Origin: Bacteroidota bacterium
GTDB lineage: Bacteria; Bacteroidota; Rhodothermia; Rhodothermales; UBA10348
NCBI GenBank assembly: GCA_029262855.1
Contig: JAJCYP010000070.1
Coordinates: 1 to 64,000 of the forward strand
Reading direction: 5' to 3'
Length of the DNA stretch: 64,000 nt
How positions within the stretch are numbered: position 1 is the stretch's first letter; each line of letters opens with the position of its first letter. Below are positions 47,813-61,045 of the stretch, in pieces. A model generated the notes under the pieces. That model worked only from the letters and a program-made list of their open reading frames with translations, was not told the DNA's origin and did no database searches. Made by a program: the position numbers and the translations under genes.

Positions 47813-48367
47813 CTAGTTCTGCCGCGACGACCAGTGAACGGCAGCCACTTTCCAACCCGCGTCGCTATGCTTCAGGACCAGAAGCTCAGCCGAGGTCATG
47901 TCGATATCGCGATCCCGGAAGTTGCCCTGAAGCCGGGAAGTCGAAGTGATCCAGGCCGCGTGACCTGCCACAGACACAGTGCGCTCAAGAGGCTCGCGCG
48001 TCATCGCCGACAGGAAGGCCCCGTCTCCGTTGAAGTGTCCCGAGAGGTAGTGCTCGCGGGTCTCGATGCCTCCGCCCTCGACAATCAGCGCGTCCTCGAG
48101 GATGATCGAGGCAGCGGCGGTTGAGTCGTTGGCCACAATGGCCGCCCTGAATGCATCCGCTGCCGCGGCCGCTGACTCGGCCATGGCTCCGCCAGAGTCC
48201 ATGGCGTCGTGATCCATGGCTTGGCCGTCCATGGCATCGTGGTCCATGACCTCACCGTCCATGGCATCGTGGTCCATGTTTTCCATGGTCTCCCCGGCAT
48301 GCTCATCCGTGTTGGCGGTGCAGGCCGTCAGGCCGACGGCAAGAAGGAGTGCAAGTAGTGTTTTCAT
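47813..48367 (-). CDS. Lipoprotein with Met/Asp/His repeats and a DUF4440/SnoaL-like domain
   Basis: 184 residues; lipobox LTAC with C16 as the lipidated residue. Residues 31-60 are three 10-residue repeats of the form MDHDAMDG-xx, rich in Met, Asp and His as in copper- or silver-binding periplasmic proteins. The rest (about 65-184) resembles an NTF2/DUF4440 fold: ADAFRAAIVANDSTAAASIILEDALIVEGG ... SAELLVLKHSDAGWKVAAVHWSSR. Its start overlaps the cusA stop (ATGA), making it the last gene of a cusC-cusB-cusA-lipoprotein operon. It may play the metal-carrier role of CusF, which is missing. Binding is inferred, not shown. Confidence 0.8.
   Translation of the reverse strand: MKTLLALLLAVGLTACTANTDEHAGETMENMDHDAMDGEVMDHDAMDGQAMDHDAMDSGGAMAESAAAAADAFRAAIVANDSTAAASIILEDALIVEGGGIETREHYLSGHFNGDGAFLSAMTREPLERTVSVAGHAAWITSTSRLQGNFRDRDIDMTSAELLVLKHSDAGWKVAAVHWSSRQN
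48188..48277 (-). repeat. Three 30-bp tandem repeats coding MDHDAMDG units
   Basis: Three in-frame copies of a 30-base unit encode MDHDAMDGEV, MDHDAMDGQA and MDHDAMDSGG. The second and third bases of the codons are nearly identical between copies, which points to recent tandem duplication. Copy number may vary between strains. Confidence 0.9.
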
Positions 48368-51300
48368 TGTGCAGGTTCTGTTTGAGGGTTCGTCTCGAGG
48401 CTACGTGACCTCCAGAGATAGTAGATCACGGGAATGACGACGAGGGTCAGAACGGTGGAAGAGACCATTCCTCCGACCATGGGCGCGGCAATGCGGCGCA
48501 TGACTTCGGAACCGGTGCCGTGACCCCACATGACGGGTAACAACCCGGCCATGATGGCCGTGACGGTCATCATCTTCGGTCTGACACGCTCGACTGCGCC
48601 CTCGACAATCGCATCATAGAGGTCGCGAACGGAGTTCATCTGGCCCCGGTCTGCACGTTCCTTGTACGCCTGATCCAGGTAGATGAGCATGATGACCCCG
48701 GTCTCTGCCGCGACCCCAGCCAGGGCAATGAAACCGACGCCGACCGCCACGCTGAGGTTATAGTCCAACAGGTACAACAACCAGACGCCGCCGACCACCG
48801 AGAACGGTAGCGAGAGCATCACGATCAGGCTCTCCTGGATGTTGCGGAAGTTGAGGTAGAGCAAAAGGAAGATGATCACGAGCGTAATCGGGATGACCAG
48901 GGCCAGCCGTTCCTTCGCCCGCTCCATGTATTCATATTGCCCACTCCACACCAGGCTGTAGCCCTCGGGCAGATCAACCCGCTCTTCCACCACGGGCTTG
49001 GCGTTAGCGACGTAGGTACCCACATCGATATCACGGATGTCCACATAGATCCAGGACGTGCGTCGGGCGTTCTCGCTCTTGATCACGGGCGCCCCCATAA
49101 CGGTCTCGAAGTCAGCCACGTACGAGAGGGGAATCTGGGCGCCGCTCGGCGTGGGTATCAGCACCCGCTGAAGCGCCGGCAGGTTGTCTCGCAGCTCACG
49201 ACTGTACCGCACGTTGACGGGGTAGCGCTCGAGGCCTTCCACCGTCTTGGTGACGTTCATTCCGCCGATCGCGGACATGATGACATCCTGTACGTCTCCG
49301 ACCGTCAGCCCGTATCGGGCCGCCTCGACCCGATCGATCTTGAAATCCAGGAATCGGCCGCCAACGGTCTTGTCAGGAAATGCCGTCAGCGTGCCCTCCA
49401 CGTCCCGTAGAACAGCGGCCACCTCCTGACCCAACTCAGACAACACGCTCAGGTCCGGCCCCATGATTTTGACTCCCACGGGCGTCTTGATTCCGGTCGA
49501 CAGCATGTCGATCCGGGTCTTGATGGGCATCGTCCAGGCGTTGGTCAGGCCCGGGAATCGAATCGCCGCGTCCATCTCCTCGACCAGCGATTCGGCCGTT
49601 ACGCCGGGCCGCCACTCCTCTTGCGGCTTAAGCTGGATGGTAGTTTCGATCATCGAAAGCGGAGCGGAGTCGGTGGCTGTCTCTGCCCGCCCGACTTTGC
49701 CAAGTACCGACTTCACCTCCGGAAACTGCTTGATGATCCGGTCTGTCTGCTGAAGGAGCTCCCTCGCCTTGGTGATCGAGATGCCGGGATCCGTCGTCGG
49801 CATGTAGAGCAGATCTCCCTCGTTGAGGGCCGGCATGAACTCGGATCCGAGACGCTGAAGCGGAAAGAGGGTCAGCACAAGAACGGCCGCTGCTACACCA
49901 ATCGTGGTCCATCTGAAGCGAAGCACCCATTCGATCACCGGGTGATAGATCCAGATCAGGAACCGGTTGACCGGATTCTTCTTCTCCGGCATAATCTTGC
50001 CGCGGATGAAGTAGCCCATCAGGACTGGGACGATGGTCACCGCAAGGAAAGCGGAAGCGGCCATCGCGTACGTCTTCGTAAAGGCCAGCGGCTTGAACAG
50101 TCGGCCCTCCTGCGCCTCGAGAGTGAACACCGGGAGGAAGGACAGGGTGATGATCAGCAGCGAGTAGAACAGCGCCGGCCCCACCTCCTTGGAGGCATCG
50201 AGGACTATTTGCCAGTGGTCCTTCTTGCCGGCGTCGCGTTCCAGATGTTTGTGCGCATTCTCGATCATCACGATGGCCGCATCCACCATCGCCCCAATGG
50301 CAATCGCGATGCCCCCCAGCGACATGATATTCGCGTTCAGACCCTGCAGATACATGATCAGGAACGCAATCAGGATGCCGAGGGGCAGCGTGACAATGGC
50401 CACCAGGGCACTCCTGAAGTGGAGCAGAAAGATGATGGTGACCAACGCCACCACGATGCTCTCCTCGAACAGCTTGAACTCGAGGTTGTCTATGGCACGC
50501 CGGATCAGGCTCGAGCGGTCATAGGCCGCACTTATCGTGACTCCTTCGGGGAGCCCCTTCTCGAGTTCAGCCAGCTTGGCCTTGACCCCGTCTATGGTCT
50601 TGAGGGCATTCTCCCCGTAGCGCATGATGATCACGCCACCGACAACCTCGCCCTCGCCATTCCACTCGACCAGACCGCGCCGCATCTCAGGGCCAATCTG
50701 TACGGTCGCGACGTTTCGGATCAGAATCGGCGTGCCATTCCCATCCACGCCAAGCGGCACATTTTCGATGTCCTGAATGGACTTTATATATCCAAGGCCC
50801 CTGACCATAAACTCGGTTTCGCCCATCTCAACCAGGCGGCCACCAACATCATTGTTGCTCCGTGACAACGCTGTGCGAACCTTGGCCAGCGGGATGTTGT
50901 AGGCTGCCAGTTTGTTCGGGTCCACCTCGACCTGGTATTGCTTGACGTAGCCCCCGATGCTCGCGACTTCCGAGACGCCCTCCACACTGGTAAGCTCATA
51001 GCGGAGATACCAATCCTGGATGGACCGAAGCTCTTGGAGATCGTGTCTGCCGTCACTCTCCAGGACATATTCGTAGACCCAACCAACGCCGGTTGCGTCA
51101 GGCCCCAGCGAGGGATTGACTCCGTCAGGCAGCCGTCCACTCACGTAGTTGAGGTACTCCAGGACGCGACTTCGGGCCCAGTACATGTCCGTCCCATCCT
51201 CGAAGATGATGTAGACGAACGAGTAGCCGAAGAATGAGTAGCCCCGGACCACCTTGGCGAACGGTACCGCCAGCATGGCGGTGGTCAGCGGATAGGTTAC

Positions 51301-51492
51301 CTGATCTTCAACCACCTGGGGCGCCTGCCCCGGGAATTCGGTAAAGACGATGACCTGGACGTCCGACAGGTCGGGAATGGCGTCGATCGGGGTGTTGAGC
51401 AGGGCATATCCGCCCGCCAGCGCCAGCAGAAGGGTGCCGATAATGACCAGCAGCCGGTTGTTGATGGAGCCTTCAATGATTCGTTCAAGCAT
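48364..51492 (-). CDS. cusA: CusA-type copper/silver efflux RND transporter
   Basis: 1,042 residues from ATG 51492 (a GTG lies one codon upstream); the start overlaps the cusB stop by one base. Inner-membrane proton antiporter of the heavy-metal RND family, exporting Cu(I)/Ag(I) through CusBC. Marks: PIDAIPDLSDVQVIVFTEFPGQAPQ at the N-terminus, TM4 GAMVDAAIVMIENAHKHLERD, and MPIKTRIDMLSTGIKTPVGVKIMG, whose Met corresponds to a substrate methionine of E. coli CusA. The IENAHKHLE form of TM4 is typical of the monovalent-metal branch rather than CzcA. Twelve membrane spans are expected. Confidence 0.94.
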   Translation of the reverse strand: MLERIIEGSINNRLLVIIGTLLLALAGGYALLNTPIDAIPDLSDVQVIVFTEFPGQAPQVVEDQVTYPLTTAMLAVPFAKVVRGYSFFGYSFVYIIFEDGTDMYWARSRVLEYLNYVSGRLPDGVNPSLGPDATGVGWVYEYVLESDGRHDLQELRSIQDWYLRYELTSVEGVSEVASIGGYVKQYQVEVDPNKLAAYNIPLAKVRTALSRSNNDVGGRLVEMGETEFMVRGLGYIKSIQDIENVPLGVDGNGTPILIRNVATVQIGPEMRRGLVEWNGEGEVVGGVIIMRYGENALKTIDGVKAKLAELEKGLPEGVTISAAYDRSSLIRRAIDNLEFKLFEESIVVALVTIIFLLHFRSALVAIVTLPLGILIAFLIMYLQGLNANIMSLGGIAIAIGAMVDAAIVMIENAHKHLERDAGKKDHWQIVLDASKEVGPALFYSLLIITLSFLPVFTLEAQEGRLFKPLAFTKTYAMAASAFLAVTIVPVLMGYFIRGKIMPEKKNPVNRFLIWIYHPVIEWVLRFRWTTIGVAAAVLVLTLFPLQRLGSEFMPALNEGDLLYMPTTDPGISITKARELLQQTDRIIKQFPEVKSVLGKVGRAETATDSAPLSMIETTIQLKPQEEWRPGVTAESLVEEMDAAIRFPGLTNAWTMPIKTRIDMLSTGIKTPVGVKIMGPDLSVLSELGQEVAAVLRDVEGTLTAFPDKTVGGRFLDFKIDRVEAARYGLTVGDVQDVIMSAIGGMNVTKTVEGLERYPVNVRYSRELRDNLPALQRVLIPTPSGAQIPLSYVADFETVMGAPVIKSENARRTSWIYVDIRDIDVGTYVANAKPVVEERVDLPEGYSLVWSGQYEYMERAKERLALVIPITLVIIFLLLYLNFRNIQESLIVMLSLPFSVVGGVWLLYLLDYNLSVAVGVGFIALAGVAAETGVIMLIYLDQAYKERADRGQMNSVRDLYDAIVEGAVERVRPKMMTVTAIMAGLLPVMWGHGTGSEVMRRIAAPMVGGMVSSTVLTLVVIPVIYYLWRSRSLETNPQTEPAQ

Positions 51493-52877
51493 CACGCGCC
51501 GTGGTCCATGTTGTGATCCTGCCCGGTTGCTGCGCTGTCAGCCGGCATTTCGGTGTCCGGCATCACTTCGTCCGGCGCCATCGTCTGATTCCCTCCCGAT
51601 GCGAGCATCTTCCGAATGGCCTCTTGCAACCGGCTCTCGCTGTCGAGCAGGAACTGCGCCGACACCACCACGAGTTGGCCGGCGGACAAACCGCTCAGGA
51701 TTCGGGTCTCCCCATTGTGGTCCCCCCCGACCTCTCCAGTCTGGACCTCGCGCGGTTCGAATCGCCCATCACCCAGTGCTACAAACGCCATCGTGCGGGA
51801 TCCGCTTCGGATGAGGGCCTCCGTGGGAACAACCACCGCGTCTTTGATCGGCTTGCCTTCAAGCAGAATGTTGGCATACATCCCCGGCTTCAATTCATAG
51901 GAGGCCGAATTGCGGAATACCAACCTGACGTGGACGTCGCGGGCCTTCTCACGCAGGAAGGGATAGATGAAATCGACAGTCCCGGCGTAAGTCTTGCCCG
52001 GCAGATAGGAAAGCGTCATCTCCACCTGCTGACCCAGCGAAATCCACGGAACCTCGTTGTCAAAAAAGCTCGCGTGCACCCAGACCGTCCTCAGGTCGGC
52101 GATTCTGAAGAGGTCCATGCCACTCTGGATGTAGGCTCCTTCAATGGCGTTCCGTTCCGTGACGATTCCGGTGGCAGGCGCATTGATCCGAATGGTTTTC
52201 CGGACCTCTCCGGTGTTGGCCAGGGCTTCGATTTCGGACTCAGGTATGTCCCAGTACTCCAGGCGAGTCCGGGCGGCCGACACCAGGCGCTCAGCATCGG
52301 CACGGACCGAGGGAGTCGCATTCGGTGAGACCATCTTGGCATTCCGGACGGCCAGGAGGAATTCCTCCTGTGTGGACACCAGCTCGGGCGAATAGATATC
52401 CATGAGGGGACCGCCCACCCGGACCTCCTCTCCTACATAGCTCACATACAGCTTCTCAATCCAACCCGAGACCTTCGAGTTGACGACATGCAGTCTCTCT
52501 TCATTGTAGCTCACGTCCCCCACGGTCCGGATTTGCCGGCTGAAATCCCGCTGTTCCACCACCTGCGTACGGACGCCCATACTCTGGATGGTGCTGGGAT
52601 CAATGCTGATATTTGAATCGGAAGCGGCCGGCTGGTCGTCTGCATATACCGGCACCAGATCCATGCCCATTGCAGACTTGCCCGGCGAATCGTAGATCTC
52701 CGTGGGATTCATCGGGGCCTGCCAGTACAGTACGGTGCGTTCGGTGGGTGCGGACGAAGTCTCGGAGTCGTCGGGCCCTGAGGTGCGTGTACCGAAGAAG
52801 TACCCGGCACCTCCCATCAGGAGGGCCAGGATGATCCATCCCGCGGCACCGAATCTATTCTTGTTGGATTGTGACAT
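51492..52877 (-). CDS. cusB: CusB-type periplasmic adaptor
   Basis: 461 residues, ATG 52877. An N-terminal membrane anchor (about 10-28) is followed by a heavy-metal-binding domain YWQAPMNPTEIYDSPGKSAMGMDLVPVY, with Met residues suited to Cu(I)/Ag(I). The barrel-sandwich and hairpin region follows (SKVSGWIEKLYVSYVGEEV, IYSPELVSTQEEFLLA, INAPATGIVTERNAIEGAYIQSG), then the membrane-proximal domain. The C-terminal ~35 residues are rich in Met, Asp and His and end HNMDHGA, echoing the repeats of the operon's lipoprotein. It starts three bases after cusC and links it to CusA. Confidence 0.93.
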   Translation of the reverse strand: MSQSNKNRFGAAGWIILALLMGGAGYFFGTRTSGPDDSETSSAPTERTVLYWQAPMNPTEIYDSPGKSAMGMDLVPVYADDQPAASDSNISIDPSTIQSMGVRTQVVEQRDFSRQIRTVGDVSYNEERLHVVNSKVSGWIEKLYVSYVGEEVRVGGPLMDIYSPELVSTQEEFLLAVRNAKMVSPNATPSVRADAERLVSAARTRLEYWDIPESEIEALANTGEVRKTIRINAPATGIVTERNAIEGAYIQSGMDLFRIADLRTVWVHASFFDNEVPWISLGQQVEMTLSYLPGKTYAGTVDFIYPFLREKARDVHVRLVFRNSASYELKPGMYANILLEGKPIKDAVVVPTEALIRSGSRTMAFVALGDGRFEPREVQTGEVGGDHNGETRILSGLSAGQLVVVSAQFLLDSESRLQEAIRKMLASGGNQTMAPDEVMPDTEMPADSAATGQDHNMDHGA

Positions 52878-52880
52878 CGG

Positions 52881-54194
52881 TCAATCAGTGTTCGAAGCGG
52901 ATGGGGTTGAGAGAGACTGGCCGAGGGCGCGCTGAAGGGCCACTCCCGCCTTGTCGAATTCGGTGATGGCCTCCTCGTGGGCCCAACTCAGCTCAAAGAG
53001 CATGCGCTGCGCATCCAGGAGGTCCAGAAAGCCGCTGCGACCGGTCGAGTAGGTGGTCAGGGTTGCCTCAAGCGTGGATTCAGCCTGTGGGATGAGGGCC
53101 GTCTCGAAGAGGGCGATCTGCCGGCGGGTCTGGTCCAATCGGAAGACTAAATCGTCTACGGTTGTGCGAATCGACGATTCCAGCGCCTCCCGTTGAGCTT
53201 GGATCTGCAGGCTTCGCACGCGCGTCTCTTCTTCCCTTGCTCGGATGCGGCCCCGCTGCAGGGGTATTTTTACGGACACCCCGACTGCAATGGCATCCCG
53301 ACCGTCCCCGGAAGGTGGAATACTCGAGTCTCGAATGTCGAAGTATGTCAGGGAGACGCCGAAGTCCGGAAGCCGTTCTTTCTTGGCCAACTCCTGCGCC
53401 ACCTCGGATGCCTGCAGACTCAGGTCGTTGGCCTCCAGTTCGGGCCGCTGACTGAGCGCCAGGGCACGAACTTCGGACTCCGACGGGCTTTCGAAAACCA
53501 GGACGGCCGGCCGCAGGCTCTCGGCGAGTGAAATTGGCCCATTGGCAAGATTGGACATCTGCTCCACCAGGGTCCGTTCTCTGCGATCGAGGGCAATCAG
53601 CCGATTGGAGAGTGCGTTCCGCTCCAACTGAGCCTTTAGAATCGCTTGTTGCATCCCTTCGCCTACCCTGTAACGAACATCCGCAATGCCTTCGAAATCG
53701 GTTAGCTGCTGCTGAAATTCTCGGATCACCGTGCGCAGGCGCCTCGTCAGCAAGAGATCTGCGTACAAGAGGCCCACCCGCTCGACCAGGTCGAGTTCAA
53801 GGACGGCCACCGACACGGCCGCTTCATCGGCTCTCAAGGATGCCTCTTCGGCCCGCAGAGAGAGTTTGCCTGGATACGGAATTGCCTGACTGATCTGCCA
53901 CTGACTGCGCTGGGCGCCCCGAGCGGTATAGATCGGGAACGGCTGGAGAGCCAGTCCGGCCACCGGATCCGGCAGAGCCCCCACCTGCGCCGGCCTCTGC
54001 TTCAGGGCCAGGCTCGCCAATGATGTGGCCGTCAGCATGGGATTGCTGAGTCTCACTTCCGCGATGATGTCCTCTATTCCTTCCACGTGAAGGGTGTCTG
54101 GACTCTGCCCCGCAGCCATCCCGACGCCTGCCGTCAGGAGGGTGACGGCGAGGGCGCCGCATCGGATTCGGGACGAGGAAGAGGACCTTCTCAT
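52881..54194 (-). CDS. cusC: CusC/TolC-type outer-membrane efflux protein
   Basis: 437 residues with a signal peptide (hydrophobic 13-29). Outer membrane factor repeats are visible: QISQAIPYPGKLSLRAEEASLRADEAAV, LLYADLLLTRRLRTVIREFQQQL, RYRVGEGMQQAILKAQLERNAL, then the second repeat with QRPELEANDLSLQASEVAQELAKKERLPDFGVSLTYF, and TYSTGRSGFLDLLDAQRMLFELS. It forms the outer-membrane channel of the Cus pump. It is the first gene of the operon; a four-box operator lies 64-103 bases upstream, within the 161-bp region shared with the divergent response regulator gene. Confidence 0.9.
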   Translation of the reverse strand: MRRSSSSSRIRCGALAVTLLTAGVGMAAGQSPDTLHVEGIEDIIAEVRLSNPMLTATSLASLALKQRPAQVGALPDPVAGLALQPFPIYTARGAQRSQWQISQAIPYPGKLSLRAEEASLRADEAAVSVAVLELDLVERVGLLYADLLLTRRLRTVIREFQQQLTDFEGIADVRYRVGEGMQQAILKAQLERNALSNRLIALDRRERTLVEQMSNLANGPISLAESLRPAVLVFESPSESEVRALALSQRPELEANDLSLQASEVAQELAKKERLPDFGVSLTYFDIRDSSIPPSGDGRDAIAVGVSVKIPLQRGRIRAREEETRVRSLQIQAQREALESSIRTTVDDLVFRLDQTRRQIALFETALIPQAESTLEATLTTYSTGRSGFLDLLDAQRMLFELSWAHEEAITEFDKAGVALQRALGQSLSTPSASNTD

Positions 54195-54257
54195 AGTTAT
54201 TCTTTTGAAACCGGCATCGGAATTAGTCGACCATCGATGAAAGGTCGGGATGGTGCC

Positions 54258-54297
54258 CTTAAGAGTTGCTGAAGGCTCTCTTAAATCTCTTTAAGGG
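54258..54297 (-). promoter_or_regulatory. Four-box direct-repeat operator upstream of cusC (site A)
   Basis: Read on the minus strand, hexamers CTTAAA (54295-54290), TTTAAG (54285-54280), CTTCAG (54274-54269) and CTTAAG (54263-54258) follow at 10-, 11- and 11-base steps. Such phased direct repeats are typical for OmpR/PhoB-type response regulators. The same four boxes occur upstream of copB, with 29 of 40 aligned bases identical. The site lies between cusC and the divergent response regulator, so it may control both. Confidence 0.75.
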
Positions 54298-54355
54298 GCG
54301 GATCGCCCACCCCCGGGTACCGTACCCCACTTTCAGTCACCTTGCCGCGAGTACG

Positions 54356-55054
54356 ATGTGGGTTCTTATTGTTGAGGACGAAATCCGCCTGGCCGACCTC
54401 ATTCGCAGGGGTCTGGAGGCTGAGGGGTTTTCGGTAGCGGTCTCCCATGACGGCGTCGAGGGCGAGGAACTGGCCGCCTTGAATCGGTACGATGCGCTGA
54501 TCGTTGACTGGAGGCTCCCGAAGCAGGACGGCCGGACGCTCATCAAGAACCTTCGCGCCGCGGGCAATCAGGTACCTGCCATTATGCTCACGGCACTTGG
54601 AGACGTTGAGCATCGGGTGGCCGGCCTGGAGGCAGGAGCAGATGATTATCTGCCCAAACCCTTTTCCTTCGAGGAACTCGTGGCCCGCCTTCGCGCGGTG
54701 ACGCGCCGCCCCCCCATCGCCGAGTTCGATCACATCCTGACCGCCGGTTCAGTGGTTGTCAACTGCGATCGGCGGTCGGTCGAGATCAGCGGTGAGCCCG
54801 AATTTTTACGTCCCAAAGAATTCGCGTTGCTCGAAATGTTGCTCCGAAGAAGGGGGGATGTGATCTCTCGCAGCGTCCTGGCCGAACGAATCTGGGGCAG
54901 CGCGCTTTACGTTACAGACAACGTTATTGATGTCACTGTTTCCGGCCTGCGTTCCAAACTCAACGCCGGTTTCAAAGGGACAACTCCGGATCTCGAGATC
55001 GTGACGGTTCGTGGAGTCGGGTACTCTTTGCGGGAAATCGAAAAAACCTCCTGA
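54356..55054 (+). CDS. OmpR-family response regulator (CusR/CopR-like)
   Basis: 232 residues from ATG 54356; MWVLIVEDEIRLADLIRRGL fits the receiver N-terminus. Phosphoacceptor D51 (LIVDWRLPKQDG), T/A switch at IMLTALG and K101 (LPKPFSF) are all present. The winged-helix output domain is at about 130-225 (PKEFALLEMLLRRRGDVISRSVLAERIW, DNVIDVTVSGLRSKL, TVRGVGYSL). Its stop overlaps the kinase start (TGATG). Divergence from cusCBA strongly suggests it controls copper/silver efflux, probably through the phased repeats upstream of cusC and copB. Confidence 0.94.
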   Translation: MWVLIVEDEIRLADLIRRGLEAEGFSVAVSHDGVEGEELAALNRYDALIVDWRLPKQDGRTLIKNLRAAGNQVPAIMLTALGDVEHRVAGLEAGADDYLPKPFSFEELVARLRAVTRRPPIAEFDHILTAGSVVVNCDRRSVEISGEPEFLRPKEFALLEMLLRRRGDVISRSVLAERIWGSALYVTDNVIDVTVSGLRSKLNAGFKGTTPDLEIVTVRGVGYSLREIEKTS

Positions 55055-56490
55055 TGAAGGTGAGTACAAAGGCAGGATCTCGCCCCTGGCACCCGCGCAG
55101 TTGGGGCATTTCCCTGCGCCTCACGCTGTGGTTCAGTTCCGCGATCGCACTCCTGCTGATAGGATTCGCTGTCCTGACCTATGTCAACTTTCACCGGAGC
55201 CTCCACCGGGATTTCGACCAGCACCTGACTCACGAACTCCGCGTGTTCCTTCCGGACATCGAAAGCGGCCAGCAAGGCCCTTACTTCCCGCCTCAGAGGG
55301 AACTGACTGCGGCTGCCTATCAAAGCAACGGGATCTTCGGCACGTTTGTCCGGCTTCTGTCCCTGGACGGCAGCGTCGTGTATCAAAGCCCCAATTTTGA
55401 GGGAGAGGAAGCCCTTGATGTTCAGATACCGGCCACGGATATCTCCGAGTCGGTGTCACGAACCTGGGCGGCCGGTCCCGTCCGCAGCCTCTATTTCCAA
55501 TTGGCCAGCGAGGACGGCTTCCCCTATGGATGGGCGGAAGTAACAGGCTACGAGTGGTCTCTGCATACAGAACTCGATCGACTTACCAAGATGTTCGCGG
55601 CCGGCATTCTGCTGGCTGTCCTGCTCGCGTCTGTTGGTGGATACCTGCTCGCCCAGCGTGCACTTTCCCCTGTCGCAGATATTACCGAGACTGCGAACCG
55701 GATCAGGGCATCAAATCTTTCGGACAGAATCCCCTTGCGTGGTGGCGGTGAGGACGAACTGTCAGCCCTGACAAAAACCATAAACGGCCTGCTGGACCGG
55801 ATCGAGGAATCCTTCCGGCGGGAACGGCGATTCTCGGCCAACGCGGCACACGAGTTGGTTACGCCGCTGGCCACCATGCGGGCGGAGTTGGAACTGGCGC
55901 TAAGGACACTTGACGACCGTCATCCGCTCGAAAGCACGCTGGTCGCGTCCATTTCTGACATTGATCAGATCAGCACTATCGTGCGATCGCTTCTGATGCT
56001 CCATTCTGCGGAGAGGCTGTCTGATGGCACCAAGGCCCGGATGGAGCTGGCGGGTTTTGCAGGAGAGCAACTGGAGCGATTTCGGGACCGAGCTGACCTT
56101 CAGAATGTCTCCTTGGAATTCGGGGCACCCATTTCGCTCTGGGTGCTTGCAGACCGGAAAGGCCTCTCCACGGTCGTTGACAACTTGATGGACAACGCCC
56201 TGAAGTACACCGAGCCCGGAGGATCCATTCTGGTCTCCCTCGTTCGGAAGGGCGAAGATGCCCAACTCACGATCACGGATGACGGTGTCGGATTTGCTCC
56301 AGAGGCAGGGCCGCAGCTCTTCGACAGATTCTATCGTGAGCGCGCGGCTCCGGTACAAAAACGTGAGGGAAGCGGACTGGGGCTCTCGATTGTAGCGGCC
56401 GTCGTCTCCGCGCACGACGGCCGAGTCTGGGCTACCTCCGACGGACACGGAAAAGGAAGCACATTCGGTATCGCCCTTCCGCTGGCTTAG
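55054..56490 (+). CDS. Sensor histidine kinase (CusS-like)
   Basis: 478 residues. Two membrane helices (about 21-44 and 177-199) flank a periplasmic sensor region of about 130 residues. A HAMP linker follows (RALSPVADITETANRIRASNLSDRIPLRGGGEDELSALTKTINGLLDRIEESF), then the H box with H266 in AHELVTPLATM, and the ATPase with NLMDNALKY (N box), DDGVGFAP (G1), LFDRFYRE (F) and GSGLGLSI (G2). The H box has Val where HELRTPL usually has Arg. The periplasmic part shows no cluster of Met or His that would define the ligand; copper/silver sensing is inferred from the neighbours. Confidence 0.93.
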   Translation: MKVSTKAGSRPWHPRSWGISLRLTLWFSSAIALLLIGFAVLTYVNFHRSLHRDFDQHLTHELRVFLPDIESGQQGPYFPPQRELTAAAYQSNGIFGTFVRLLSLDGSVVYQSPNFEGEEALDVQIPATDISESVSRTWAAGPVRSLYFQLASEDGFPYGWAEVTGYEWSLHTELDRLTKMFAAGILLAVLLASVGGYLLAQRALSPVADITETANRIRASNLSDRIPLRGGGEDELSALTKTINGLLDRIEESFRRERRFSANAAHELVTPLATMRAELELALRTLDDRHPLESTLVASISDIDQISTIVRSLLMLHSAERLSDGTKARMELAGFAGEQLERFRDRADLQNVSLEFGAPISLWVLADRKGLSTVVDNLMDNALKYTEPGGSILVSLVRKGEDAQLTITDDGVGFAPEAGPQLFDRFYRERAAPVQKREGSGLGLSIVAAVVSAHDGRVWATSDGHGKGSTFGIALPLA

Positions 56491-56491
56491 G

Positions 56492-56509
56492 CCTCAGAGC
56501 ACGCTGAGG
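56492..56509. terminator. Small hairpin between convergent kinase and patatin genes
   Basis: CCTCAG (56492-56497) pairs with CTGAGG (56504-56509) around a 6-base loop in the 31-base gap between the two convergent stops. There is no T-tract on either side. It may help end both transcripts. Confidence 0.3.
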
Positions 56510-56521
56510 TGCGGCGCAGGA

Positions 56522-57421
56522 TCACGCACCCCCGAGAAGGGCTTCAATATTCGCTCGCTGGTTTCGGACTGCCTGTATTCCGGTTGCCATGCACATTCTC
56601 CGCGCCCCGAAGTCAAGCGTGTCCACCACCCTCGAGAAGTTTGGTCGGATGACCATGTCTGCCCGCGAAAACCGGGCGTGGGCATGCTGAAAGTGACAAA
56701 TTTCGACTGCCCGGACCAGAGCCTGGTACCCGTTGCTTACCGTCACCGGGCCTACCATTTGACCAGGGTCCACCGCAATTACTACGTCTGTCTGAAAAGC
56801 GCGAGCCACATCAACGGGAGCAACATCCGCGTAAGCCCCGTCGGCCAGAAACATCTCTCCTCTTCGGAGTGGTGGCAGGATGGCGGCAAGTGCGGAACTG
56901 GCGTAGATCGCCTCGTCGGCAGGGCCCGTCCTCAGTATGTGCCGCTTCCCTTCGCGAAGATCCGTGGCTGCGGTCACTACGGGAATCCGTGCATCCTCTA
57001 AACGCTTCCCAAGCGTGAGGCCCCTCAGCAGGTTCCAACCCGCATCCAGCGCATGAACTCCCGGGCCCCAGTCGAACGCTACGTCTTGTACCAACCGCAC
57101 CCGGCTCATGAGCTTCTGAAGCCGAGCGCGAATTCGCTGATCCTCAGGAGAGCCATCCCTGAGCGGGCCAGGCAACTCGTCTGTCTGCAGGTTTCGAATG
57201 GCACCGTACCAATCCTCGCGGAGGGCATAGGTAACGCCCACCACGGCACCCATGGAGACTCCAACGATGGCCGACGGCGCGTAGCCCAATTGGTGAAGAC
57301 CCCACAGCACGCCGGCGTGGGAAAACCCCCGAGCCCCTCCTCCTGAAAGGACCAGAGCGAAGGTCTTGGAGTGGCCATGCTCCCGGGCGGCGGGCCCTCG
57401 AGAGCGCAAACTCTTCTTCAT
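56522..57421 (-). CDS. Patatin-like phospholipase (RssA/YchK type)
   Basis: 299 residues from ATG 57421; a GTG at 57460 would overlap the upstream gene by 20 bases. The patatin Ser-Asp dyad is intact: oxyanion loop LSGGGARGFSHAGVL, nucleophile GVSMG, and DGAYADVAPV with the catalytic Asp. No signal peptide is seen, so it should be a cytosolic or inner-leaflet lipid acyl hydrolase. It is the last gene of a six-gene minus-strand set from the PII-like gene on. A link to copper damage of membranes is possible but speculative. Confidence 0.9.
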   Translation of the reverse strand: MKKSLRSRGPAAREHGHSKTFALVLSGGGARGFSHAGVLWGLHQLGYAPSAIVGVSMGAVVGVTYALREDWYGAIRNLQTDELPGPLRDGSPEDQRIRARLQKLMSRVRLVQDVAFDWGPGVHALDAGWNLLRGLTLGKRLEDARIPVVTAATDLREGKRHILRTGPADEAIYASSALAAILPPLRRGEMFLADGAYADVAPVDVARAFQTDVVIAVDPGQMVGPVTVSNGYQALVRAVEICHFQHAHARFSRADMVIRPNFSRVVDTLDFGARRMCMATGIQAVRNQRANIEALLGGA

Positions 57422-57440
57422 CCCACTGGCCCAGGTTGAG

Positions 57441-57698
57441 TCAATGCCCCAACCTGGCACTAACGGCGTTGTAGATCAGGGAGTAGCCCAGGCCCAGGTA
57501 GACCCCCCAGAGAAAACTCTCTCCCAGACCCAGCAGGAAGCTGCCGAAACTGATCCACTTGAAAGCAGGGAGAACCGCCTCCAGGAAACCATGCATGTGG
57601 AGAGCGTCTGGCGTGATCAGACCAAATCCCACGCACAGCACGAAACTGGCGCTTGTGAACAGGGCTGCGGACCAGGTGACGATTTTGGTGTTCAACAT
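57441..57698 (-). CDS. Small two-span membrane protein (DUF5676-like)
   Basis: 85 residues with two clear membrane helices (about 8-29 and 51-76). The size, the first helix followed by a short polar loop with LHMHGFLEAVLPAFKWISFG, and the ending GVYLGLGYSLIYNAVSARL resemble DUF5676 proteins, which are often found next to heavy-metal transporters; this is by pattern and could be wrong. It is 17 bases after the His-tailed microprotein and 19 before the patatin start, in one apparent transcript. Confidence 0.65.
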   Translation of the reverse strand: MLNTKIVTWSAALFTSASFVLCVGFGLITPDALHMHGFLEAVLPAFKWISFGSFLLGLGESFLWGVYLGLGYSLIYNAVSARLGH

Positions 57699-57715
57699 GG
57701 CATTGAGCTTGTGGC

Positions 57716-57856
57716 TTAGTGTTGCGTGTGGCCGGAAGACCGATCGGGTTCTCCATGGTCTCCATGGCCTCCGTGGCCTCCGTGGCCAAACATGTGCATG
57801 GCCATGAAGGCGATCAGAACCAGGAGGAAGAACCAGTTTTCAGAGATAAAGTCCAT
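57716..57856 (-). CDS. 46-residue membrane protein with His-rich tail (DUF2933-like)
   Basis: Starts at ATG 57856, six bases after the ferredoxin stop, and ends at TAA 57716-57718. One membrane helix (WFFLLVLIAFMAMHMF, about 8-23) is followed by HGGHGGHGDHG and a C-terminal GHTQH. The arrangement N-terminal span, MHMFGHGGHGGHG is that of DUF2933 proteins, small membrane proteins common in copper-resistance loci. The His/Gly tail should bind metal ions at the membrane surface; role as a chaperone or buffer is inferred. Position within the operon and tight spacing support that it is real despite its size. Confidence 0.8.
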   Translation of the reverse strand: MDFISENWFFLLVLIAFMAMHMFGHGGHGGHGDHGEPDRSSGHTQH

Positions 57857-57862
57857 GGCTGT

Positions 57863-58201
57863 CTACTCCCACATTTTCAGGTCTTCAACCGACTTGGCTC
57901 TGGTCAGCCAGGCGTCCGCGTCCGGTAGAGGATCCTTCTTGTCAGTTATGGTTCGCTCCGGACCCCATAAATTGGTCAGGTAGGCATTCCACTCGGTATA
58001 GTGCGCGTACTCTTCGGGCAACTCATCCTCCGCAAAAATCGCCTCGGATGGACAGACAGGCACGCAGGCGTTGCAGTCAATGCATTCATCGGGATTGATC
58101 ACAAGAAAATTGGGACCCTCCAGGAAGCAGTCCACCGGGCAGACTTCGACACAGTCGGTGTATTTGCAGTTGATGCAGGGCTCGGCAACGACGTACGGCA
58201 T
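57863..58201 (-). CDS. 7Fe ferredoxin (FdxA type)
   Basis: 112 residues. N-terminal clusters: [17 protein letters not shown] and [17 protein letters not shown]. The pattern, with the third cysteine group shifted (C-x2-C-x4-C-x3-C-P-x2-C), matches seven-iron ferredoxins with one 3Fe-4S and one 4Fe-4S cluster. The C-terminal tail of about 45 residues ([18 protein letters not shown]) is also typical of FdxA. It is a cytosolic electron carrier. Iron-sulfur proteins are main targets of copper; its place in a copper operon may reflect replacement or stress electron supply. Confidence 0.92.
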
Positions 58202-58227
58202 GGATCTGACCTCGTTGGGGAGGGACG

Positions 58228-58422
58228 TTACTGGTTGGTTTTCGGCAAGGGGGGCATGTCGCCGGTGGCAGTCGTATACGTCTCCGGTGATTCTTCGAAG
58301 AGCCGCTTGCAGGCCGCTGAGCAGAAGTAGTATACCACTTGTGCGTGCTGGACCGTAGCCGGGGGCTCAAGGGGATTCACGGCCATGCCGCAGACTGGAT
58401 CCCTGGCGGGCGTCGTGTTCAT
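58228..58422 (-). CDS. YHS-domain metal-binding protein
   Basis: 64 residues, ATG 58422, overlapping the PII-like stop (ATGA). The YHS domain is [12 protein letters not shown] ... [19 protein letters not shown]: the DPVCGM cysteine with the C-x3-C pair forms a metal site as in the N-terminal domains of some copper ATPases and mercury/copper proteins. Standing alone it is likely a small cytosolic Cu(I)/Ag(I) binder. The CopB ATPase encoded divergently lacks such a domain, so the two may act together. Confidence 0.9.
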
Positions 58423-58778
58423 GTTCCTTCCCGTTTGATTGCAAAATCCTGATCCCCAGTGGCCCCGGTGCGAATCTTGACCGCCATGTCCAGCTCGGAC
58501 ACGAAGATGATGCCGTCGCCCGGCTGGCCGGAATACGCCGTCTCGCGAAGAGCCTCCACGATTGCGTGGACATCTCGATCGGAGCAGACGATTTCCAGTT
58601 TGGTCAGCTTTGAATAACGCTTGACCGCAGATATCGAGTAGCGCGCGCTGCGGAGGTCGGCAAGCGCTCCGAACCCCATTACTTCTCCCAGGGTAATCCC
58701 GTCGATTCCCAGATTTCCGAGCTCTTCCAAAACTGACTCCGTCTTGGAGGCCCGAATAAAGGCTTTGATTTCTTTCAT
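58419..58778 (-). CDS. PII-like signalling protein
   Basis: 119 residues with the ferredoxin-like trimer fold of the GlnB/PII superfamily: MKEIKAFIRASKTESVLEELGNLGIDGITLGEVMGFG, then KLTKLEIVCSDRDVHAIVEALRETAYSGQPGDGIIFVSELDMAVKIRTG. The T-loop is altered: between GFG and KLTKLEIV there is ALADLRSARYSISAVKRYS, without the uridylylated YRGAEY of classical GlnB. The B-loop TAYSGQPGDGIIF is kept, so nucleotide binding is likely. PII-like proteins of this kind are known beside heavy-metal efflux genes. A role in sensing or tuning metal transport rather than nitrogen control is inferred. Confidence 0.85.
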   Translation of the reverse strand: MKEIKAFIRASKTESVLEELGNLGIDGITLGEVMGFGALADLRSARYSISAVKRYSKLTKLEIVCSDRDVHAIVEALRETAYSGQPGDGIIFVSELDMAVKIRTGATGDQDFAIKREGT

Positions 58779-58833
58779 GGCCGTAAGGGGCGAGTGAACA
58801 CCGTCAAGATGACCGACACCTCCTTGGGTCTAC

Positions 58834-58850
58834 CTTAATCCAACCTGAAA
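58834..58850 (-). promoter_or_regulatory. Two-box partial operator facing the PII-like operon (site C)
   Basis: On the minus strand TTTCAG (58850-58845) is followed 11 bases later by ATTAAG (58839-58834), matching boxes three and four of the cusC and copB sites. It lies 56-72 bases upstream of the PII-like start. With only two boxes it is weaker evidence; it may give a lower response of this operon to the same regulator. Confidence 0.4.
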
Positions 58851-58885
58851 AAATATTCAGACCGACCAAAAAGCCCCAGTGAACT

Positions 58886-58925
58886 CCCTTAAAGGTAATT
58901 AAGGCGGTCTTCAGGAGACCTTAAG
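58886..58925 (+). promoter_or_regulatory. Four-box direct-repeat operator upstream of copB (site B)
   Basis: CTTAAA (58888-58893), ATTAAG (58898-58903), CTTCAG (58909-58914) and CTTAAG (58920-58925), spaced 10, 11 and 11 bases. Aligned with the minus strand of 54258-54297, 29 of 40 bases agree, including the blocks CCCTTAAAG, TTAAG, CTTCAG and CTTAAG. TAGATTGG at 58936-58943 is one base off the Bacteroidota -7 consensus TAnnTTTG and may be the promoter, giving a leader of about 60 bases to ATG 59009. Confidence 0.75.
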
Positions 58926-59008
58926 CAAGGCCAGCTAGATTGGGTATGTTCAGGTCCCTTTGCTTCCCGATCCGGGGGGGCGACCATGCATCACACTATC
59001 GCGAGATC

Positions 59009-61045
59009 ATGACAGATCAGCACCGAGACGGACACGACCAGCACGCCGGGCATGATGAGCCCACAGGCCGCGACAAGCACGCCGGGCATGCGAACCACCA
59101 CGAGCACATGGTGGCGGACTTCCGGAAACGCTTCTGGGTATCGCTGATCCTGACGGTTCCCATCCTCGTGTTGGCTCCCATGATCCAGACATTCCTAGGC
59201 TTGGGTGATTCCATCCGGTTTGCAGGAGACACATGGCTGCTTTGGGCCTTCTCGAGTACCGTCTTCTTCTACGGCGGCTGGCCCTTTCTGAAGGGGCTGT
59301 TCAACGAGATGAAGGGTGCGAAACCGGGGATGATGACCCTCATCGCCATCGCGATTACCACGGCCTACGTCTACAGTACGGCCGTCGTGTTTGGTCTCGA
59401 GGGCAAGATGTTCTTCTGGGAGCTGGCCACACTGATTGACGTGATGCTGGTTGGCCACTGGATTGAAATGCGGTCCGTAATGGGCGCCTCCAGAGCCCTG
59501 GAAGAGTTGGCTCGGCTGATGCCATCGGAAGCTCATCGGATTGGAGAGGATGGCCAGATTATGGACATCCCGCTCGGCGAGCTGCGGGAGGATGACCGCA
59601 TTTTGATCAAGCCGGGAGAAAAGGTACCGGCCGATAGCGACGTCATCGACGGACATTCCTCCGTAAATGAGGCGATGCTCACAGGTGAGTCTGTTCCGGT
59701 TTCCAAGGCGGCGGGAGACACGGTGATCGGGGGCTCGATCAACGGTGAGGGCGCCCTGACTGTGGTCGTCCGAAAAACGGGTGCCGACAGCTTTCTGTCC
59801 CAGGTGATAACCCTGGTGAAAGAAGCCCAGGAGAGCAAATCGAAGACTCAGGACCTGGCCAACCGGGCGGCTGTGTGGCTGACCATTGTAGCCCTCGGCG
59901 GTGGCGCGGTCACCCTGTTCGTCTGGCTGATGGTGATGGGAGCAGACTTCGCTTTTGCGCTCGAAAGGACGGTCACGGTGATGGTCATCGCCTGTCCACA
60001 CGCGCTTGGCCTGGCTGTCCCCCTGGTTGTCGCCGTCTCGACGGCACTGGCGGCGGGCAATGGTCTCCTGATTCGTGACCGCACCGCCTTTGAGGCTGCC
60101 CGCAACCTCAACGCCATCCTGTTTGACAAGACCGGGACCCTCACGGAGGGACGATTCGGTGTCACCGATACCCTGGTGTTCGGCACCGACTTCCACCCCG
60201 AGCGGATCGTTGAGTTGGCCGCAGCTGTTGAGGCGCACTCCGAGCATCCCATCGCGCAGGGTGTGGTCCAGGCGGTCAACACACCACTGCCGGTTGGCGA
60301 TTTCCAGGCCATTCCGGGCAAGGGCGCCGAGGGAACGGTGGATGGCCATCGCGTCCAGGTTGTCAGCCCTGGCTACGTTCGGGGGCTCGGACATGAAATC
60401 ACTGACCCGAGATTCGAGGAACTGTCCGGCCAGGGAAAAACGGTCGTTTTTGTCCTGGTTGACGGTGCTGTGGTGGGAGCGCTGGCGCTCGCCGACGTTA
60501 TCCGGCCAGAGTCCAAGGAGGCGCTTGCCGAATTGAAGGCGATGGGAATCAAGACCATGATGCTGACCGGTGACAATGCAAAGGTCGCGAAATGGGTATC
60601 CGATGAGATTGGGCTCGACGAGTACTTCGCAGAGGTCCTCCCCAACGAGAAGTCGGCCAAGGTCAAGGAAATTCAGAGCCGCGGACTTACGGTTGCAATG
60701 ACAGGGGATGGCGTCAACGACGCCCCGGCACTTGCTCAGGCCGATGTGGGCATCGCCATCGGTGCGGGCACCGACGTGGCCGTTGAAACGGCTGACATTG
60801 TTCTGGTGCGCAGCAGTCCCAAGGATGTCGCAGCGATTGTCAGACTCTCCAAGGCGACGTACAGAAAAATGGTTCAAAACCTCTGGTGGGCGGCTGGCTA
60901 CAACATCCTCGCCATCCCGGTGGCCGCCGGCGTTCTGTACTCCTACGGAATCTTGCTGGGCCCCGCGGCAGGAGCCGCTTTGATGTCGGTCAGCACGGTC
61001 GTGGTGGCTGTGAATGCCCGCATGCTCCGGCTGGACCGGGAGTAA
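59009..61045 (+). CDS. copB: CopB-type copper/silver-exporting P1B ATPase
   Basis: 678 residues from ATG 59009; the earlier ATG at 58946 lies almost on the predicted promoter. The first 35 residues are His/Asp-rich (HDQHAGH, DKHAGHANHHEH). P-type ATPase marks: TGESVPVSK (near 224), the metal-site CPH (329-331) in VIACPHALGLAVPLV, phosphorylated D373 in DKTGTLTEG, and GDGVNDAPALAQADVGIAIG. CPH with a His-rich N-terminus is the CopB (P1B-3-like) class, as opposed to CPC in CopA. It should export copper or silver across the inner membrane, complementing the Cus pump. No MBD of the CxxC type is present. Confidence 0.95.
   Translation: MTDQHRDGHDQHAGHDEPTGRDKHAGHANHHEHMVADFRKRFWVSLILTVPILVLAPMIQTFLGLGDSIRFAGDTWLLWAFSSTVFFYGGWPFLKGLFNEMKGAKPGMMTLIAIAITTAYVYSTAVVFGLEGKMFFWELATLIDVMLVGHWIEMRSVMGASRALEELARLMPSEAHRIGEDGQIMDIPLGELREDDRILIKPGEKVPADSDVIDGHSSVNEAMLTGESVPVSKAAGDTVIGGSINGEGALTVVVRKTGADSFLSQVITLVKEAQESKSKTQDLANRAAVWLTIVALGGGAVTLFVWLMVMGADFAFALERTVTVMVIACPHALGLAVPLVVAVSTALAAGNGLLIRDRTAFEAARNLNAILFDKTGTLTEGRFGVTDTLVFGTDFHPERIVELAAAVEAHSEHPIAQGVVQAVNTPLPVGDFQAIPGKGAEGTVDGHRVQVVSPGYVRGLGHEITDPRFEELSGQGKTVVFVLVDGAVVGALALADVIRPESKEALAELKAMGIKTMMLTGDNAKVAKWVSDEIGLDEYFAEVLPNEKSAKVKEIQSRGLTVAMTGDGVNDAPALAQADVGIAIGAGTDVAVETADIVLVRSSPKDVAAIVRLSKATYRKMVQNLWWAAGYNILAIPVAAGVLYSYGILLGPAAGAALMSVSTVVVAVNARMLRLDRE

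Follow-up and report, generated by a model that had tools for sequence, protein, structure and literature searches.

The window analyzed here is a 64,000-nucleotide stretch (positions 1 to 64,000 of contig JAJCYP010000070.1) from the genome of a Rhodothermales bacterium, and it encodes a two-component system of the copper/silver type (54356 to 56490) together with cusCBA-like and copB-like metal efflux genes. RpoB supports placement in the Rhodothermales: its identity to a Rhodothermales metagenome-assembled genome is 82% (residues 4 to 905) and 76% (866 to 1276), compared with 72% to one labelled uncultured Bacteroidetes and 62% to three labelled Bacteroidetes, Bacteroidales, and Ignavibacteria; two of the seven genomes compared had no match. 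Based on the arrangement, spacing, and genomic distribution of four-box sites found before cusC and copB, we conclude that these sites are very probably (we put the probability at roughly 0.85) activator operators of this two-component system and that they belong to a set of nine predicted promoters in this genome. The kind of system is a known one; its operator sequence is new, its geometry is refined here, and some of its members are unexpected.

The match between the cusC and copB sites exceeds chance. The original prediction had reported that the site before cusC (54258 to 54297, minus strand) and the site before copB (58886 to 58925, plus strand) are identical at 29 of 40 positions, and our recount agrees; the common 10/11/11-base spacing of their hexamers was likewise confirmed in both sites. 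When intergenic pairs were shuffled with dinucleotide composition preserved (n = 2,000), the best 40-base match was 26/40, and none of the 2,000 shuffles reached 29. In an ungapped search of both strands of the window, the best other match to either site was 23/40, and this match overlaps the copB site itself.

In the aligned sites, box 1 reads CCTKAAA and is thus TTTMAGG on the opposite strand; TTMAG is common to boxes 2, 3, and 4, which all face the same way with an 11-bp pitch. Because box 1 reverse-complements the other boxes, the 10-base step is that of an inverted pair and the 11-base steps are those of direct repeats. The core is an inverted repeat, CCTKAAA-N4-TTTMAGG, followed on the promoter side by two direct TTMAG boxes at the same 11-bp pitch. 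The original prediction had pictured four direct repeats filled by two stacked tandem dimers; we rejected four direct hexamers, since the CC at the start of box 1 is conserved and box 1 pairs with box 2, both of which fit an inverted half-site. A position profile was built from 44 sites, and a position-specific matrix trained on the sites, tested on its training sequences only, is used to describe positions and not as evidence. In one relative (G047, contig C213; locus L137, 9062 to 9116), a TonB-dependent receptor gene is preceded by five TTTAAGGTT units with a pitch of exactly 11 bp, so that the repeat unit is plainly visible there; this five-unit array may be a super-operator.

The sites also look like directional promoters. 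In 31 of 43 aligned sites, a −10-like element, A-N2-TT, occurs at offset 51 to 55, counted from the initial C of box 1; the remaining 59 offsets average 0.47 occurrences and reach 4 at most. The site model takes no account of the downstream region in which the element was found. (The 43-site count omits identical cores, the overlapping rows of locus L137 from 9062, scores below 17, and sites within 110 bp of the end of a stretch; loci L126, L133, L134, and L139 are outside it because they are absent from the 23 stretches scanned.) Sites from related genomes are not independent, and a probability computed for this offset is not to be taken literally. Between the last TTMAG and the A of A-N2-TT there are 12 bases, which places the array at the −35 position, and no separate −35 hexamer is conserved across the aligned sites; boxes 3 and 4 appear to occupy that position. 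Since the offset is fixed, the direction and the probable position of the polymerase can be read from the DNA, and the offset is a natural yardstick for promoters in this group, whose conservation is weak. A pattern made of boxes 2 to 4 plus A-N2-TT, with box 1 left out and up to 2 mismatches allowed, recovers the same nine places in this genome (control, 1 match). Among these nine sites the element is exact in six and keeps its A and last T in two, and at the copB site it (TAGATT) lies one base closer.

The layout, with 31 of the 43 sites carrying A-N2-TT at offset 51, is that of a PhoB-like class II promoter, in which the operator lies in the −35 region at a fixed distance from the −10 element. 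PhoB binds pho boxes, which are direct repeats with an 11-bp pitch that replace the −35 element some 11 bp ahead of the −10 element, and recruits RNA polymerase there. The arrays described here are placed in the same way and differ from pho boxes in sequence, in signal, and in their inverted first half-site, which pho boxes lack. We propose that the activated regulator would bind the array of four half-sites, that the bound array would stand in for the −35 element and recruit RNA polymerase at the weak −10 element, and that the nine promoters would thereby be switched on together. The converse, that the array is a repressor site and the promoters are blocked until metal releases the regulator, is very improbable. 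Repressors of metal efflux such as CopY and CsoR are known (PMC10141476), but here the array itself stands at the −35 position, 12 bases before the −10 element and with no other conserved −35 hexamer, and the related boxes of the silver response regulator AgrR activate (PMC7380067).

The four-box pattern recurs in related genomes and is very rare in controls. In the original form of the pattern, with up to 3 mismatches, it occurs at four places in the own genome (4.74 Mb in 146 contigs) and at none in the reversed control: the cusC and copB sites of the window (0 mismatches each), C70:70517 (1 mismatch; 6.5 kb past the end of the window), and C90:3241 (3 mismatches; on another contig, before the gene of a Met/His-rich protein). 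With up to 2 mismatches it was found in 7 of 60 genomes, the own genome included, and in none of the controls. When the pattern was refined to CCTKAA-N6-TTMAG-N6-TTMAG-N6-TTMAG and at most 1 mismatch was allowed, we found 45 sites in 12 of 114 genomes of the order, spanning five of the 15 families sampled, and the reversed control gave 0 in all 114. With all three spacers made one base longer or one base shorter, there were 0 matches in the same 12 genomes. AT-rich hexamers can coincide randomly, but the shuffling result, the 45 sites against 0 in controls, the absence of matches with altered spacing, and the fixed −10 offset make it scarcely conceivable that the two window sites match by chance or are copies of a dispersed repeat that has no regulatory role. 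Nine of the 45 sites come from one genome, G032. Among the other 36, 29 lie on a contig with a regulator homologue (expect value [E] ≤ 1e-50) or CopB, the farthest being 12.8 kb from the nearest such gene, and all four sites of G036, a single contig of 4.5 Mb, lie inside 13.2 kb.

The candidate for the protein that binds these sites is an OmpR/PhoB-type response regulator (54356 to 55054, plus strand; Response_reg, 1.8e-26; Trans_reg_C, 2.2e-20), which is followed by a sensor histidine kinase (55054 to 56490, plus strand) with HAMP, HisKA, and HATPase_c domains. A receiver joined to an OmpR-type DNA-binding domain, with a kinase gene adjacent, is the arrangement of CusR, CopR, and SilR. The best of 89 NCBIfam families for the regulator is cztR_silR_copR (TIGR01387; 187.2 bits, cut-off 279.2), and the best NCBIfam match of the kinase is cztS_silS_copS (TIGR01386; 210.3 bits, cut-off 292.55). 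Because both proteins score nearest to the CusR/CopR and CusS/CopS models and fall under the cut-offs, we call them CusRS-like and not members of these families. For the N-terminal 215 residues of the kinase, we found no relative of solved structure at E ≤ 1.

Regulator homologues (E ≤ 1e-50) occur in 34 of 100 genomes searched, the own genome included. The upstream DNA of 30 of these homologues was examined, and for 19 of them the 350 bp before the gene contain a four-box site with a score above 14.5, the best reversed control of all 60 upstream regions (those of CopB included). Of the 19 genomes that have a close regulator (E ≤ 1e-76), 11 contain sites, as against 1 of the 81 genomes without one (Fisher p = 5.9e-9). 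The original prediction, which saw a single metal regulon and took the OmpR-type regulator beside the cusC site as its likely binder, is supported by this association. Its further claim that the regulator turns on both the Cus pump and CopB fares well as far as association goes, with a site beside the regulator and both genes among the members; that the regulator binds and activates and that its signal is copper or silver are inferences from the sequence. As to possible autoregulation from box 1, hand reading found no A-N2-TT toward the regulator gene at the matching distance, and two such elements further down.

The arrangement extends beyond the order. A scan of 198 genomes of the phylum with the pattern that includes the −10 element (up to 2 mismatches) found it in nine genomes, six in the order (G028 and G042 among them) and three outside it (G157, G283, and G221), with one reversed-control match overall. 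In G157 and G283, which belong to another class, a regulator, a kinase, the operator, and a CusA/CzcA-family pump stand in a row, the pump frame beginning 35 bases behind the operator, and the regulators are 42% and 39% identical, respectively, to that of the window. The regulator, kinase, and pump of G283 were scanned, and its 493-amino-acid pump fragment has as its best match the CusA/CzcA family (TIGR00914), covering the model's first half. Regulators more distant than these (≤45% identity) were examined at 80 loci from named genomes, and a single locus contains a site scoring at least 15, which speaks for the assignment to the window's regulator; among the loci listed, reversed controls reached 15.6. 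That single locus is outside the phylum, in a metagenome-assembled genome of the Sphingomonadales (L186, 9888 to 9927), where a similar four-box site (score, 19.2) lies directly upstream of a response regulator that is 38% identical to that of the window.

Several observations weigh against assigning these operators to the CusRS-like system. Both of its proteins score under the curated cut-offs of the CusR/CusS type, as noted above. The limit of E ≤ 1e-76 and the scoring weights were set after inspection of the data, and related genomes do not supply independent sites. Outside G032, the contigs of seven of the 36 sites have no regulator or CopB match, and 12 of the 43 aligned sites have no exact A-N2-TT, the copB site being among them by one base. 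Even with up to 1 mismatch allowed, eight of the 19 close-regulator genomes lack a site: boxes 3 and 4 are degraded in seven of them, and no site was found in G030. Several families that have the regulator preserve only boxes 1 and 2 well. In G051 a site is present, and no regulator homologue was found at E ≤ 1e-30. The phylum-scan matches of G028 and G042 are far from the regulators of those genomes, and the G221 site precedes no recognizable gene. Finally, eight of the nine sites in G032 are away from its regulator, most of them of the TTCAG type; the ninth is beside the regulator, before a Met-rich gene.

Three of these eight G032 sites (L134, 4465, 6129, and 8646) each precede a subtilase gene; they are nearly identical, of the TTCAG type, and have TATGTT at the −10 offset. 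The architecture is therefore not confined to metal genes. Either a sister regulator works through this same operator architecture in that genome or the regulon has spread there. A pattern scattered without link to metal genes, which the original prediction had named as what would count against it, is absent from the own genome and present in this one relative.

These cases bear on whether the operator is real and bound by another OmpR-family regulator, for example a general envelope-stress regulator of the PmrA/BasR type. The PmrA/BasR box, bound head to tail by a regulator of the OmpR/PhoB type, consists of hexamers (C/T)TTAA(G/T) 5 bp apart, and its consensus, (C/T)TTAA(G/T)-N5-(C/T)TTAA(G/T), resembles the half-sites found here in both hexamer and 11-bp pitch (PMC10729948, PMC3973317). 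The subtilase sites of G032, the site without a regulator in G051, and the Sphingomonadales site beside a regulator 38% identical would also fit such a reading. In the accounts of PmrA considered here there are two direct boxes only and the genes served are those of polymyxin resistance, and the window regulator fails the cut-off of the PmrA model (NF007928; 144.5 bits against 330). Against another binder, sites co-occur with the regulator and lie upstream of 19 of its 30 homologues, and a paralogue in the own genome that is 51% identical to it (C76:46996) has no site scoring at least 15.5 in the surrounding 16 kb. We therefore regard another OmpR-family regulator as unlikely and the CusRS-like regulator as the probable binder.

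The window contains three operators where the original prediction, which had overlooked the third as well as the inversion of box 1, counted two. Operator 1 (54257 to 54296, minus strand; 0 mismatches) reads CCTTAAA..TTTAAG..TTCAG..TTAAG, that is, inverted-direct-direct-direct, toward cusC, with a −10-like GACCTT (54241 to 54246, minus strand) that places A-N2-TT at the conserved offset (50 to 55). Behind it on the minus strand are genes for a cusC-like outer membrane efflux protein (52881 to 54194; OEP, 6.4e-34), a cusB-like adaptor (51492 to 52877; HlyD_D23 and HMBD), a cusA-like heavy-metal pump of the resistance-nodulation-division type (48364 to 51495; TIGR00914, CusA/CzcA family, 1263.3 bits, exceeding the cut-off of 701.45), and a DUF4440 protein (47813 to 48367; PF14534, 3.8e-09). 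Operator 1 has counterparts in relatives: in G002 the counterpart stands in the same place, ahead of a cusC homologue, and in G003 and G008 the genes behind it encode OEP-family efflux proteins.

Operator 2 (58887 to 58926, plus strand; 0 mismatches) faces a gene for a CopB-like P-type ATPase (58940 to 61045, plus strand; TIGR01511, copper-translocating P-type ATPase, 612.7 bits, exceeding the cut-off of 397), in which a CPH motif was recognized by eye. Its −10-like TAGATT (58936 to 58941, plus strand) is one base nearer than the consensus offset, with 2 mismatches to the pattern. The copB frame has starts at 58940, 58946, and 59009, and the predicted promoter would favor 59009. An operator directly upstream of copB is not the rule among relatives: 1 of 30 CopB upstream regions has a site, and that one is the window itself. 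In loci L020, L023, and L024, an operator-led gene lies further upstream of copB on the same strand, and copB may be read through from it.

Operator 3 (58822 to 58861, minus strand) shares an intergenic region with the copB site and points the other way, toward a P-II gene. It is weaker (score, 17.9; 3 mismatches); no site in the reversed control of the window scores 13.5 or more, and its −10-like CATCTT (58806 to 58811, minus strand) has A-N2-TT at the exact offset. Behind it on the minus strand are a P-II-like protein (58419 to 58778; PF00543, 8.7e-19), a YHS-domain protein of 64 amino acids (58228 to 58422; PF04945, 5.4e-09), an FdxA-type ferredoxin (57863 to 58201; NF045490, 136.4 bits, cut-off 135), a small His-rich DUF2933 protein (57716 to 57856; PF11666, 1.1e-07), a two-helix membrane protein of the DUF5676 family (57441 to 57698; PF18926, 2.1e-09), and, as the last of the same-strand block, a patatin-like protein (56522 to 57460; PF01734, 2.4e-17). 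Based on strand and spacing, this block is probably one operon. The operator also heads P-II genes in G047, G019, and G012, and a patatin gene of G047 has an operator of its own.

In the own genome as a whole, the refined pattern with up to 3 mismatches has 10 matches (control, 1). One of these, C40:10257, was judged to be a chance match: it lacks a −10 element and is not recovered by boxes 2 to 4 plus the −10 element. The other nine are the predicted promoters, three of which are in the window (cusCBA with the DUF4440 gene, copB, and the P-II/YHS/FdxA/DUF2933/DUF5676/patatin block). C70:66436 precedes genes for a Met-rich protein and then for a small open reading frame, a cupredoxin, a flavin adenine dinucleotide (FAD) enzyme, and a type II glyceraldehyde-3-phosphate dehydrogenase (GAPDH), ending at 70281 (L005, 5436 to 9281). 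C70:70516, the third strong operator, precedes the gene of a kinase-like protein (L005, 9654 to 10541), which by eye resembles a protein-kinase fold and has no Pfam match. C40:11185 (L124, 7185) serves as the operator of a second type II GAPDH that is about 70 amino acids shorter, C83:13110 precedes a PEMT-family methyltransferase gene, and the Met/His-rich protein behind C90:3240 has no Pfam match. At C40:16541, the next long gene on the same strand is that of a FAD enzyme, 445 bases away. Two further candidates fall outside the nine: L005 5373 (minus strand, before an MMPL gene; score, 16.9) lacks a −10 element, and at L007 3629 (before a DUF2231 gene; score, 16.4) the −10 element is only partial. 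In relatives, two of the targets are multicopper oxidases and others are OEP-family efflux proteins or Met-rich proteins that match Metal_resist or LTXXQ at or below the cut-off; Usp proteins, a DUF4198 protein, a patatin, and an uncharacterized outer-membrane-like family are also among them.

The closest known design is that of AgrR of Cupriavidus metallidurans, which at some operators combines an inverted 6-4-6 repeat with in-phase direct repeats, both aiding activation; its target regions include agrR itself and copA2-copR2, and type II activation was suggested for most of the promoters studied (PMC7380067). The 44-site profile shares with AgrR operators the inverted repeat, its 4-bp spacer, and the in-phase direct repeat. 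The half-site is ATKACA/TGTMAT there and CCTKAA/TTMAGG here, direct repeats occur at some operators there whereas most sites here have two of them on the promoter side, and P-II or GAPDH members are found only here, with none in the portion of the AgrR account considered. UzcRS of Caulobacter likewise controls a two-component regulon responsive to uranium, zinc, and copper through a partly palindromic motif (CATTAC-N6-TTAA), with efflux pumps and TonB-dependent receptors as targets (PMC8963506); as far as that account was considered, it resembles the present system in these traits and pump targets and differs in its motif and in its broad envelope regulon, as opposed to the metal cluster here. 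In the flavobacterium Bizionia, CusR/CopR-like regulators have been named, with no operator in the part of the source considered (PMC11213822). Among the open-licence literature matches listed, none describes an operator or regulon for copper control in Rhodothermota or Rhodothermales, and the present work gives copper control in this group an operator and a predicted promoter map.

The type II GAPDH members were assigned by family models: the C70 protein exceeds the cut-offs of both NF003251 (435 bits, cut-off 185) and TIGR01546 (317.8 bits, cut-off 232.9), and the shorter C40 protein exceeds the first (331 bits) and falls just under the second (232.2 bits). Ordinary GAPDH is sensitive to copper. 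Together with the P-II member, these enzymes suggest a response to copper stress that combines metabolic signalling with the replacement of a copper-sensitive enzyme. There is, in our judgment, about an even chance that the promoter grammar described here (one inverted and three direct half-sites, 12 bp, and A-N2-TT), which occurs in five families of the order and in another class of the phylum, makes the copper regulon readable from DNA alone and that, through it, copper stress would directly switch on both the P-II-type signalling protein encoded next to CopB and a spare type II GAPDH, so that metal defense would be tied to central carbon metabolism. P-II-type genes beside Czc pumps are known as PII-NG (PMC7726332); the P-II-type gene of this metal-resistance unit, assigned by its Pfam match alone, resembles them in setting and differs, as far as that account goes, in having a CopB ATPase as its neighbor and an operator copy of its own in front of it. 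Near the regulon there are also plastocyanin-like cupredoxins (L005, 14292 to 15053 and 6591 to 7016), one of which is fused to a cytochrome c-like domain.

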